Shown: piece by piece, positions 28,599 to 35,719 of the stretch
Numbering within the stretch: the stretch's first letter is position 1
Layout: every line of letters starts with the position of its first letter
Made by a program: the position numbers and the translations under genes
Notes under the pieces: model-generated
Databases searched by the model: none
Seen by the model: the letters and a program-made list of their open reading frames with translations, nothing else
Told to the model about the DNA's origin: nothing
Source of the DNA: Bacteroidota bacterium
GTDB lineage: Bacteria > Bacteroidota > Bacteroidia > SXHM01
Direction: 5' to 3'
Assembly: GCA_947479755.1 (NCBI GenBank)
Contig: CANKAM010000001.1
Span: 124,001-188,000, forward strand
DNA: 64,000 bases

Positions 28599-28639
28599 AT
28601 TTATTGGTTTTTATAGTTCTCTGTTTTATTTTATTTTCG

Positions 28640-28658
28640 GGGGCTTCGCCCCTTTTTT
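28640..28658 (+). terminator. GC hairpin with T-run downstream of the DGR-type target
   Basis: GGGGC-TTC-GCCCC (28640-28652) is followed on the plus strand by TTTTTT. It lies about 26 bp beyond the stop of the minus-strand FGE-fold gene, where DGR targets often carry a hairpin needed for retrohoming. On the minus strand no T-run follows, so for that gene it is not a classical terminator. Confidence 0.45.
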
Positions 28659-28677
28659 CAAGTATCAATAACCCCGG

Positions 28678-30294
28678 CTAAGGCGCAATACGAACTCCCC
28701 GACCACCGATATAGATGTCCCGACCCGTGATCGTGAGAGCCGCAATGCTGCGGTCAGACACACGCAGGGAGATCGCATTAATGTTCCAATCGCCCCCGCG
28801 GTAGCCTGCGCCTGTGGCTCCGGTTACCTCGCCTACAACCAGACCGGGCCATAGTATTTCATTAGCATTGCCGTTGGTGCTTAATACCCCATTGCCCTGT
28901 ATGCCTGTAAATGCCCTGCCTGTTGCATTACCCACCGTTACCGGGCGCTCCCACAGATTACCGCTCATTTCCATAATGCCATAGTAAGTGGCACCCGATT
29001 GCACCCTGTTGGTGCTGCCTGTGGCAAACACGCCAACCCGCATGGGACCCTGCACGCTTCCACTGAAGTTATAAACTGCGTTAGCACCGGCAGTGTTAGT
29101 AGTTTCATTGCTTGCTCCGCCATTGGTAATATTGTTTGCCCGGGTAATGGCGGTGCTGCCCCAGGCATATTCATTTGCTACGGCTGCTATGGTGCCTCGG
29201 CAGGCTTTTTCATATTCCAGTTCCGTAATAGGGCGCAAACCGCACCAATCCAAATAGGCTGATACATCCATATAACTTAGCCAATTGCATGCGAGCCACT
29301 GCCCGTCTGCCGTTTCGCCCCCTGTGCCGTTGCCGTTCAGGTCGCAATAAAAAGTGATGGGGTTGCTGGTATTTATGGTGGCAGCGCAGCGTATGCCATT
29401 GCGGGCTTGCAGGGTTGCGGTATTGCTCATTACATAGCGGTTGGTAACGCTGGTGATGCCTGCGGCAAGGTTCGTCCCGGTACGGGTGTTTTGCTGGGCG
29501 CGGGTAAGGGTATTTAAAAAATCGACATACTGCTGCTGGGTAATTTCGTATTTCATGCAGTAGAAAGCCTTGTAACCTTTAGGGTAAGCGGCAGGCAAGG
29601 GTTTGGTGGTAGTATTATTAAAGTCATCGGCTGTAACCATGCCGGTGGCATTATTATTAGCCAAATTGCCGTTAGCAGTGCCGCCTAATGTGAGGGTGTC
29701 TTCGGAGGTAATGCTGAGCGGGGTATTGGTGCTGCCATTGCGGAACTGCCCACTCACAGAAGTAAAAGAGCCATCGCCTGCGGCAAAACTACCCTGCGGC
29801 ACATACACCATTTCTATGGCATATACCTGCACATCCACTATATCATTATCGAATACGCCATTGGCTCCGTAGTTCCAGCGCAGTCGTATATTGGTACCTC
29901 CATTAACACCCCATATTGAACTTGTAAAATGAAGAAACGCCCCTATGCCCGGATTGGTAGTAGCATTAAAGGCAGAGCTGGGGGTTTGCAGGCCAACATC
30001 AAAGGTGTTGCCTGCGGGTGGGGTGTGCCCGTTATTATTTAATTTGGCATGTCTCCATGCACCGCTGCCTACGCGGAATTTTACAAATATCCAGGCGGCA
30101 TCCCAGCTTGTTCCGGTATTCCAACTGTTGGGCCATTGCATATCGAATTGCACCATGGTGAAGTTGGCGGCATTGTTGGTGCCGGCTGTAACATCCTGCC
30201 CGGTAAGCACTACATTGCTAACGGTGATGTTGTTTGCAGATGCAGTTATGCTGCAAGCTAAGAGGGTGAGGAGGAGGAGGAGGAGTTTCTTCAT
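28678..30294 (-). CDS. Secreted formylglycine-enzyme-fold (SUMF1/C-type-lectin) protein, candidate DGR target
   Basis: A 538-residue protein with signal peptide (MKKLLLLLLTLLACSITASA). Residues about 20-190 form a Bacteroidota-specific N-terminal domain; residues about 225-538 are an FGE/SUMF1 fold (YCMKYEITQQQYVDFLNTLT, LDWCGLRPITELEYEKACRG, YYGIMEMSGNLWER, GGRGVR). In DGRs this fold displays variable residues at its C-terminus. Here the last segment YRGGDWNINAI to GGRGVRIAP has variable-type positions that are all NNC/NNT codons between constant codons. It is probably a surface ligand-binding protein rather than an enzyme. No reverse transcriptase is present in this window. Confidence 0.85.
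   Translation of the reverse strand: MKKLLLLLLTLLACSITASANNITVSNVVLTGQDVTAGTNNAANFTMVQFDMQWPNSWNTGTSWDAAWIFVKFRVGSGAWRHAKLNNNGHTPPAGNTFDVGLQTPSSAFNATTNPGIGAFLHFTSSIWGVNGGTNIRLRWNYGANGVFDNDIVDVQVYAIEMVYVPQGSFAAGDGSFTSVSGQFRNGSTNTPLSITSEDTLTLGGTANGNLANNNATGMVTADDFNNTTTKPLPAAYPKGYKAFYCMKYEITQQQYVDFLNTLTRAQQNTRTGTNLAAGITSVTNRYVMSNTATLQARNGIRCAATINTSNPITFYCDLNGNGTGGETADGQWLACNWLSYMDVSAYLDWCGLRPITELEYEKACRGTIAAVANEYAWGSTAITRANNITNGGASNETTNTAGANAVYNFSGSVQGPMRVGVFATGSTNRVQSGATYYGIMEMSGNLWERPVTVGNATGRAFTGIQGNGVLSTNGNANEILWPGLVVGEVTGATGAGYRGGDWNINAISLRVSDRSIAALTITGRDIYIGGRGVRIAP
28681..28800 (-). other. Putative DGR variable region (VR)
   Basis: Codons 499-538 of the FGE-fold protein. Fourteen codons between 502 and 529 (502, 504-506, 508, 516, 517, 520, 522, 524, 526-529) read GAT, AAC, ATT, AAT, ATC, AGC, ATT, CTC, ATC, GGT, GAC, ATC, TAT, ATC. 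All end in C or T and are what adenine-directed mutagenesis of AAC/AAT template codons gives. Intervening codons (TGG, GCG, CTG, CGT, GTG, CGG) are G/C-rich and spell the conserved LRVSDR and GGRGVR. The template repeat is not in the window, so direct proof is lacking. Confidence 0.75.
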
Positions 30295-30345
30295 GGTATT
30301 ATATTTAAGAGGTAATCGGTTATCGGTATTCGGTATTCGGTGTGT

Positions 30346-32039: not shown

Positions 32040-32390
32040 TTAATGTTTGGTGTTTATCACTTTTTTTGAGCTGATACACCTGCGGCTGACAAGGTGAAGC
32101 GGCTGAAGCCGGCTGATATACCCTGAAGCGTTAAGGTGAAGCAACTCAAGCCAATTGATGCACCCTGAAGCCTTAAGGTAAAGCAACTCAAGCCGGCTGA
32201 TGCCCCCTGAAGCGTTAAGGTAAACTAGCTCAAGCCGGCTGATGCACCCTGAAGCGCTAAGGTGAGCCAACTGAGCTGAACTGATGCACCTTTGCCGTTG
32301 GCTGGATAGCAACTGGCGTGAGCTGTTGTTTCCTGACGTGTAGAGGCTTATTAAATCAACTGGTTCTGTATAAGGCATCTTAAATAACAA
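32040..32390 (-). CDS. Possible small protein built of 14-residue repeats
   Basis: An open frame of 116 codons whose central part is the 42-bp tandem repeat read as 14-residue units such as RLELLHLNASGYIS, RLELLYLKASGCIN and RLELVYLNASGGIS. Because the unit is a multiple of three, the frame stays open through all copies. ATG 32390 lies about 50 bp after the predicted start of an FNR-type promoter. No signal peptide or known family. It could equally be a non-coding minisatellite within a leader. Confidence 0.35.
   Translation of the reverse strand: MLFKMPYTEPVDLISLYTSGNNSSRQLLSSQRQRCISSAQLAHLSASGCISRLELVYLNASGGISRLELLYLKASGCINWLELLHLNASGYISRLQPLHLVSRRCISSKKVINTKH
32070..32300. repeat. 42-bp tandem repeat, about 5.5 copies
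   Basis: Units start at 32070, 32112, 32154, 32196, 32238 and 32280 (last partial and degenerate). Consensus opening GCTGATGCACCCTGAAGCG and ending AACTCAAGCCG on the plus strand. Units differ by a few substitutions, with no length change, so it is a somewhat aged minisatellite or a selected repeat protein. Confidence 0.85.
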
Positions 32391-32445
32391 GGTAGTTAAT
32401 AGACTATAAGAATAGTTTAGCAGGGCTTATCCTGCTTTTCAGCAC

Positions 32446-32493
32446 CAAAGGAAATGACATTAATCACCAAATACTATGATTGCGCTCATACTA
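32446..32493 (-). promoter_or_regulatory. FNR-type box plus -7 element upstream of the DGR-target cluster
   Basis: Box TACTATGA-TTGCGC-TCATACTA (32472-32493). On the minus strand TTCCTTTG (32446-32453; 5 of 6 of TAnnTTTG) is centred 33 bp away, while the plus direction has no match. It therefore points toward the repeat frame at 32390 and the genes leading to the DGR-type target. Confidence 0.55.
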
Positions 32494-32585
32494 TGAGTAT
32501 GACAGAAAAGCAAAAAATATAAAGGGCCGATAACCCGAATTCCCATAGCTATCGGGAGGGGCTAAGGTTTGGTGCTTATACCAAC

Positions 32586-32724
32586 AGATTCCTCCCTTCG
32601 GTCGGAATGACACGGAATTATTGTCAGATAGAGGTGAAAAGAAGGAGGCGCGCAAAGCGCGCCTCCTTCTTTTCACCTCCCTTTATATAAACCAATCTGT
32701 CATCCCGACCGAAGGGAGGGATCT
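32586..32724. repeat. MITE-like nested inverted repeat
   Basis: Outer arms of 27 bp at 32586-32612 and 32698-32724 pair at 25 of 27 positions; the core is CCTCCCTTCGGTCGG and its complement. Inside is a 23-bp perfect stem (32631-32653 with 32657-32679) with loop AAA. No protein is encoded. Elements with this CCCTTCGGTCGG end recur between Bacteroidota genes. Together with the promoter box and tandem repeat, it accounts for most of the 32007-32778 gap. Confidence 0.75.
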
Positions 32725-32778
32725 CTTTATTCTTATCCCAAACTCAGGTCTTTATATTTATTGCCCTGCCTGAATAAG

Positions 32779-34527: not shown

Positions 34528-35283
34528 TCAGCTTTTTTTTGCAATGCTGTGCGTAAACGAGAACCACAACACATCATTCTGCTCAAAACTAAGGGGCACA
34601 TTAGGGTGGCTCAGTTGCAGCACATAATTGAGTGTTATAAGCCATTGCTCATTAAACTGGTAGCTTAAACCCGCCAACAGGCGGTTGGTGTCAAAGACAT
34701 TGTATTTTACCTGACTGCCGAAATTTACCATCACCTCGTCACCCACATTAAGCGCAATGGTTTTTGCGCTCATAGTTTTATGATTCAACGGAATGGTAAC
34801 ATACAACCGGTAGCGCAGGCGGTTGAAATAACTATCGTCAGCAGTAATGTTTCCTTCTGTTATTTTCCTGAAATAGCGCTGTTCCATACGCAGGCGGTTG
34901 CTGAAATAAAACCTGCCGCTGCGCAAGGGGAAAAACAATTCTTCCCAGCCACGCAGTTCAAACCGCGATGCTTTATTATCTGTTAAAGCAAACGTAACAC
35001 AGCCCCCGCCCGCCACCGTAATAGATTCTGAAACAGAATAAGCTAATCCTGAGCGCACCAGCACCAGCGACAACCCGCCAAACGTATCTTTAACACGAAG
35101 ACTGGCATCATTAAGTAAGGTGAAATTTTTACCAAGCCCTATGCGGCTGTAATACTGTATCCACTGCTGGTTGCCGTGGTCAATCTTGTTTTCAGAAGTT
35201 TGCGAAAAAACGGCAGAGCAGAAAAATAAAAAGGAACAGACAATAAATAAAAAGGAATATTTACTGCTCAATACCATTGGCAA
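34528..35283 (-). CDS. DUF2490-like outer-membrane beta-barrel protein
   Basis: A 251-residue protein with signal peptide ending VFSQ. The body consists of amphipathic beta strands with alternating aromatic residues (FYFSNRLRMEQRYFRK, NRLRYRLYVTIPLNHK, LLAGLSYQFNEQWLITLNYVLQ) as in DUF2490 outer-membrane proteins. The start overlaps the preceding MORN gene by 23 bp. ATG 35277 is an alternative start. Function unknown. Confidence 0.75.
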   Translation of the reverse strand: MPMVLSSKYSFLFIVCSFLFFCSAVFSQTSENKIDHGNQQWIQYYSRIGLGKNFTLLNDASLRVKDTFGGLSLVLVRSGLAYSVSESITVAGGGCVTFALTDNKASRFELRGWEELFFPLRSGRFYFSNRLRMEQRYFRKITEGNITADDSYFNRLRYRLYVTIPLNHKTMSAKTIALNVGDEVMVNFGSQVKYNVFDTNRLLAGLSYQFNEQWLITLNYVLQLSHPNVPLSFEQNDVLWFSFTHSIAKKS

Positions 35284-35719
35284 AATTCTTTTTCTCTTTC
35301 ACCGTTCCGTCTGCGTTGTAGTAAACAACCTCGCCCTGCAATTGGTCATCTGCATAAGCACCTTCGCTTTCCAGTGTTCCGTTGCTATACCAGCGCGTAA
35401 ATTTTCCGTTCAGCTTGTCGCCCTCATACAGGCTTTCGTTTAGTTTATTTCCGCTGTTGTCCCATATAGTCCACACGCCCGTGCGCTGCCCGTGCTCAAA
35501 ATTACCCTGCATTTGTTTGTTGCCGTTTTCATAAAACCAGGTCCACAAACCCTCGTCTTTGCCGTTTACATGCTGCCCCGAAACTTTTTGCTGCCCGTTT
35601 TTATGCGTATTTACAGGCTTGGTAAATTCATACGTGCCCCATATAGAAGCCATCACAATGCAAATGACAACAATGCGGTGGTAGCGCAAATTGTTTTTAA
35701 GTATCGAGCGGTCAGCCAT
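35261..35719 (-). CDS. MORN-like repeat membrane-anchored protein
   Basis: A 152-residue protein with one N-terminal membrane segment (IVVICIVMASIWGTYEF). Residues 45-150 contain MORN/YwqK-type repeats of about 23 residues: GLWTWFYENGNKQMQGNFEHG, GVWTIWDNSGNKLNESLYEG, GKFTRWYSNGTLESEGAYAD, GEVVYYNADGTVKEKKNFANG. Such repeats are common in Bacteroidota periplasmic proteins; the toxin-antitoxin name sometimes given to the family is not supported here. Coupled to the beta-barrel gene downstream. Confidence 0.75.
   Translation of the reverse strand: MADRSILKNNLRYHRIVVICIVMASIWGTYEFTKPVNTHKNGQQKVSGQHVNGKDEGLWTWFYENGNKQMQGNFEHGQRTGVWTIWDNSGNKLNESLYEGDKLNGKFTRWYSNGTLESEGAYADDQLQGEVVYYNADGTVKEKKNFANGIEQ

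Follow-up and report, generated by a model that had tools for sequence, protein, structure and literature searches.

A probable, recently diversified DGR target encoding an FGE-fold protein in a Bacteroidota genome assembly that lacks DGR machinery

Introduction

Can a gene be recognised as the target of a diversity-generating retroelement (DGR) when its genome assembly holds no machinery that would diversify it? This question is raised by a gene for an FGE-fold protein in the window, by which we mean the whole 64,000-nucleotide stretch of Bacteroidota DNA analysed here. Surveys of DGRs start at the reverse transcriptase (RT), and the largest one consulted here states that remote targets escape it (Roux et al., PMC8144416). 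The window target is recognisable without an RT or a template repeat (TR), and below we describe the evidence for its variable region (VR), the comparisons that reveal its history, and the explanations that could account for it.

Results

The target encodes an FGE-fold protein with a C-terminal variable region

The gene and the segments of it that bear on the question are as follows.

28678 to 30294, minus strand: target gene for a predicted secreted protein of 538 aa with an FGE-sulfatase/C-type-lectin fold (Pfam, AlphaFold, and PDB fold matches)
30235 to 30294, minus strand: N-terminal signal sequence of the target, MKKLLLLLLTLLACSITASA (from sequence and from the helix at residues 2-14 of the model)
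28670 to 28812, minus strand: VR of 143 bp, with limits set by homology to the TR/VR repeat of the homologous locus L070
28708 to 28791, minus strand: codons 502-529, in which the constant motifs LRVSDR and GGRGVR alternate with variable codons (codon inspection and family alignment)

A profile search matched the protein to Pfam PF03781 (FGE-sulfatase, E 1.2e-11), and its AlphaFold model (pLDDT 89.9) predicts with high confidence a formylglycine-generating-enzyme/C-type-lectin fold. When the model was compared with the PDB using Foldseek, the best folds among the matches listed were ToxD, FGE, and EgtB. Residues 2-14 of the model form a hydrophobic helix, the LLAC of the signal sequence resembles a lipobox, and the protein is probably exported. 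The signal sequence and the fold further suggest that it is exposed at the surface and binds a ligand. The VR occupies codons 498-538, at the C-terminus of this C-type-lectin/FGE-fold protein, as would be expected of a DGR target.

Within the last 45 codons, variable codons lie between the constant motifs RGG, LRVSDR, and GGRGVR. A preliminary description of this DNA had reported that LRVSDR and GGRGVR are interleaved with variable codons at 502-529, and that six Ile arise there from ATY codons; both features were present on re-inspection. It had also stated that 14 variable codons are all NNC or NNT, and as a description it is accurate. NNY codons occupy 13 of the 14 columns that have AAY in the L070 template, compared to a gene-wide NNY rate of 65% (p = 0.02); two codons within the block, 521 and 523 (both ACG), are not NNY. 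Its argument that these codons are reachable from AAC or AAT through changes at A is true but uninformative, and it is circular because any NNC or NNT codon can be derived in this way. Taken alone, the NNY excess is weak evidence for a DGR. However, when the columns of a family alignment of 56 sequences are ranked by entropy, VR columns fill most of the leading places, and this result, together with the VR-confined divergence from a sister genome described below, raises the codon pattern above chance.

A homologous locus contains a complete cis DGR and shares the putative docking site

The locus L070, from the MAG AlinenLipids_bin-7249 (CAINEZ010000472.1), encodes a target that is 46-51% identical to the window target over its full length, with the value depending on method (46% by BLAST, about 51% by alignment). 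L070 is a complete cis DGR that comprises the target, Avd (NF033474, E 2.7e-21; bAvd, 53.7 bits), an RT, and a non-coding TR downstream. The RT matches phrog_1423 (E 6.7e-103), and its best PDB match is 8ub7 (E 6e-47), which we take to be the Bordetella phage DGR RT. Alignment of the L070 VR and TR over about 141 bp revealed 23 mismatches, 23/23 of which coincide with a template A; 14 of them are A>G, 5 are A>C, and 4 are A>T. The homology starts at GGCGC and extends through GCGCCTTAGCCGGGGTT past the stop codon; it covers an interval equivalent to 28670-28812 of the window, and the VR frame is common to both. Among the loci to which it was applied, the automatic TR search was positive for L070 alone. 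The MAG that contains L070 also has the paralogues L045 and L068, but many non-A mismatches to the L070 TR ruled these out as its trans targets.

The comparison draws attention to two further features at the 3' end of the window VR.

28670 to 28686, minus strand: IMH-like GC-rich 17-mer GCGCCTTAGCCGGGGTT that spans the stop codon (sequence identity with the sister genome G001 and with L070)
28640 to 28652, minus strand: GC-rich DNA hairpin GGGGC-GAA-GCCCC, a candidate target-site hairpin (similar hairpins 3' of the L070 and L015 VRs)

The 17-mer is identical in the window, G001, the L070 VR, and the L070 TR, has near-identical counterparts in L015 and L058, and is present in one copy in the window genome. 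Eight of its bases are non-coding and follow the stop codon, so protein conservation cannot explain the block. Its position at the 3' end of the VR and its GC-richness agree with a putative IMH. The hairpin lies approximately 26-29 bp past the target stop codon, and GC hairpins also occur 3' of the VRs of G001, L070 (ATGGGG-CTTG-CCCCAT), and L015 (ATGGGGC-GTA-GCCCCAT), whereas inspection of the sequence 3' of the L070 TR revealed none. In phage DGRs, a hairpin is located downstream of the VR, outside the TR/VR homology, at a distance of 4 to 34 bp (Guo et al., PMC3240598). The window hairpin matches this rule in kind, with a 5-bp stem and a triloop compared to 7-10 bp and a tetraloop.

A tract of divergence from a sister genome is confined to the VR and biased toward adenine

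G001 is the MAG MiH-14oct19-92, which is labelled Chitinophaga pinensis and is assigned to the genus of the window genome. It is syntenic with positions 18738-38899 of the window (~20 kb); overall divergence is 1.9%, and the median 100-bp segment has 0 differences. The 143-bp VR contains 30 differences, in contrast to 0 in the 95 bp located 5' of it, and the 5' edge of this tract corresponds to the start of the L070 TR/VR repeat. At the 3' end, the final coding difference is at 28689 and the 17-mer is intact; non-coding differences lie 1 and 5 bp past the limit, with further differences from 28633 down. Differences at codon positions 1/2/3 number 13/12/5 in the VR and 20/23/40 in the remainder of the gene, and A is involved in 25/30 VR differences compared to 185/358 (52%) elsewhere (Fisher p = 0.0009). 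The constant codons between the variable ones are the same in both genomes save for two silent Arg changes. Between these close relatives, hypervariation is therefore restricted to the VR, and the VR-confined, A-biased pattern is what adenine-mutagenic retrohoming would predict. Some VR differences are not simple AAY changes (TGG/TAT, ATT/TTA, ATC/CAA), which suggests that the templates of the two VRs may differ. A minimal TR reconstruction, which assumes A at every site that differs between the window and G001, would contain many AAY codons.

The raw divergence of the VR is unconvincing alone, because a control island at 35200-35400 is more divergent (51 differences in 143 bp) without an excess of A (22/51). 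This island is the most divergent of the window relative to G001; it lies around a small ORF (35261-35719) within near-identical flanking sequence and looks like an allele replacement. The target gene is itself mosaic relative to G001 (over 28600-30300), with near-identical tracts of ~300 bp between tracts of ~10% difference, which, together with the other divergent islands, indicates that recombination is also active in this region. The same comparison showed, off the diagonal, that positions 32040-32727 are internally repetitive in blocks of ~80% identity, which overlap a repeat-like ORF (32040-32390).

The window genome assembly contains an RT relic but no DGR machinery

The preliminary description had noted that the window lacks an RT and a template repeat, and indeed neither lies beside the target there. 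The assembly of the window genome is a draft of 3.9 Mb in 112 contigs (99.58% complete). Searches of this assembly for a TR with the VR pattern (<=3 mismatches), BLASTN, and the IMH 17-mer (<=1 mismatch) returned the VR alone. No RT scored above the cut-off in the assembly, and no convincing Avd was found there, with the best candidate, on contig C14, scoring 38.8 bits against a threshold of 40. That candidate reads as an S23-type four-helix protein encoded beside fatty-acid oxidation genes and was rejected as unrelated to DGRs. Of the parts of a complete DGR, the genome assembly thus yielded neither an intact RT of the DGR clade nor a TR nor Avd. The earlier proposal of a trans target is not supported by an assembly with no TR, intact RT, or second IMH. 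Absence of an RT and template from the genome had been named as grounds for abandoning the DGR reading; this absence formally holds in the 112-contig draft, but the comparison described above still shows that a DGR acted.

The sole RT trace in the window genome is a short fragment.

G000:C90:6419-6544 (L009): RT palm fragment of 42 aa, GLPIGNLTSQ...YVDDFVT

The fragment is DGR-like, with phrog_1423 as its top-scoring match (E 6e-19) and 8ub7 as its best PDB match. It is fused to a truncated gene that reads as agmatine-deiminase-like from its sequence. The identical junction occurs in G001 (C126, L130) and in a third genome of the genus, G006 (C246, L129), at 98.6-98.9% identity, which rules out an assembly artefact. 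Because the fragment is common to G001 and G006, the relic predates the VR divergence. With the relic older than the split and the VR divergence younger than the common ancestry of the locus, another RT must have acted. In G006, contig C41 starts inside another, differently broken RT piece (2-145, L131; EFIYDSYACRVGKGTH...LDILGYFM) followed by unrelated sequence, which is possibly a second RT relic.

Relatives of the target mostly occur in genomes without a clear DGR RT

Scanning 84,980 species genomes brought up 80 relatives of the target, and the VR pattern, when applied to 395 genomes of the class, matched only the VRs of the window genome and G001. Among 198 related genomes, a homologue of the target C-terminus was found in 40 and a match to the RT query at E 1e-8 in 36, mostly weak. 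Genomes with a strong DGR-like RT show little overlap with target carriers (G007, G160, and G099), which hints, on RT matches called by E-value, that many targets in the family are orphaned or decayed. The majority of genomes with the target family are without a clear DGR RT. One homologue (L059:9965-11476) has NNY at 14/14 variable columns and no TR found in cis, and is a candidate for another freshly diversified orphan or remote target. Phages gave no match to the VR constant blocks or IMH, and plasmids gave one 33-base match. Where CTGCGTGTGTCTGACCG or the IMH 17-mer did occur in viral contigs, the genes concerned were unrelated phage genes, and the matches were dismissed as chance.

Discussion

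Taken together, these results make it very probable that the target is a bona fide, recently diversified DGR target whose RT and TR are strain-variable, recently lost, or located on an unassembled element. That its C-terminus is a DGR VR on an FGE/C-type-lectin-fold protein, as first proposed from sequence inspection, is strongly supported by the L070 cis DGR, the G001 tract, and the IMH-like block with its hairpin. In the proposed mechanism, a DGR RT would make errors at adenines as it copies a template RNA. The resulting cDNA would retrohome at the IMH block with its hairpin and take the place of the 143-bp VR at the gene end, which would alter approximately 16 binding-site residues of the exported protein. 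This rewriting would postdate the last sharing of the locus by the window genome and G001. The machinery would lie off the assembled chromosome in both genomes, and the RT and TR most likely form a strain-variable cassette that was very recently lost or sits on an element that neither assembly contains. While we infer loss or mobility of the cassette in general, we only tentatively suggest the more specific arrangement in which its home is a separate element, either mobile or strain-variable, and the chromosome provides just the docking site (VR, IMH, and hairpin), to be diversified whenever the element is present.

Several other explanations could account for the locus. The organism may still have an intact RT and TR, located on a plasmid, a phage, or a contig that was not assembled, and these would continue to diversify the VR in trans. 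The VR, IMH, and hairpin appear intact, the diversification is very recent, and trans action is already known (PMC10907252), which make this a possibility to be taken seriously, though not the probable one: neither the assembly of the window genome (99.6% complete) nor that of G001 (95% complete) contains them, viral contigs give chance-level matches, and phages and plasmids give nothing beyond the single 33-base match. It is unlikely that the VRs were made by DGR-bearing relatives and acquired through homologous recombination by a lineage that never had a DGR. Although the mosaic of 0% and ~10% difference tracts in the target gene fits such imports, they would bring flanking sequence with them, whereas the divergent tract coincides with the limits of the TR/VR repeat and is preceded by 95 bp without a difference.

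FGE-family C-termini are naturally Asn-rich and related to binding, which would fit an explanation without any DGR, namely positive selection of the ordinary kind on a loop that binds a ligand in an FGE-fold protein. The absence of a clear DGR RT from most carriers of the target family and the weakness of the NNY excess by itself (p = 0.02) are compatible with this explanation. We nevertheless regard it as very improbable, given the 23/23 A-only changes in the L070 cis DGR, the conservation of a non-coding IMH, the near-identity, even at synonymous positions, of the constant codons that separate the variable ones, and the A bias of the differences.

The preferred reading, a DGR target whose machinery is lost or elsewhere, is significant because recent diversification is documented in a lineage whose assembly is without DGR machinery. 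The target could be certified in this setting because a sister genome was compared and the IMH/hairpin docking site is conserved. If RT-free targets are common in the family, then counts of targeted hypermutation among environmental Bacteroidota fall short of its true extent.

Among known systems, the L070 cis DGR is the closest counterpart described here, with a homologous target, an equal VR frame, an identical 17-bp IMH-like block, and a downstream hairpin; unlike the window target, it is adjoined by Avd, RT, and TR. The DGR of Bordetella phage BPP-1 (mtd/brt/avd) shares the logic of A-specific VR mutagenesis, an IMH at the VR 3' end, and a hairpin 3' of the VR (PMC3240598), but its machinery lies in cis and its target is a phage tail protein, and its hairpin has an 8-bp stem and a GRNA tetraloop instead of 5 bp and a GAA triloop. 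The DGR variable protein of Thermus aquaticus is reported to have a similar C-type-lectin/FGE-like fold (PMC6328139), but it is distant in sequence and absent among the top Foldseek matches listed for the window target. In Thiohalocapsa PB-PSB1, DGR 3 and DGR 7 are degenerate loci that have diversified VRs although the RT or TR is lacking or disrupted in the reference, and the VRs of DGR 7 vary with no template match elsewhere in the reference genome (PMC10907252). The window case resembles these in its diversified VR despite absent or broken components, but it is drawn from a comparison of two assemblies, whereas long reads of Thiohalocapsa uncovered live variation as well as strains whose machinery is intact (PMC10907252). 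DGR targets in cis and in trans are already well described, and the window target adds a member to them.
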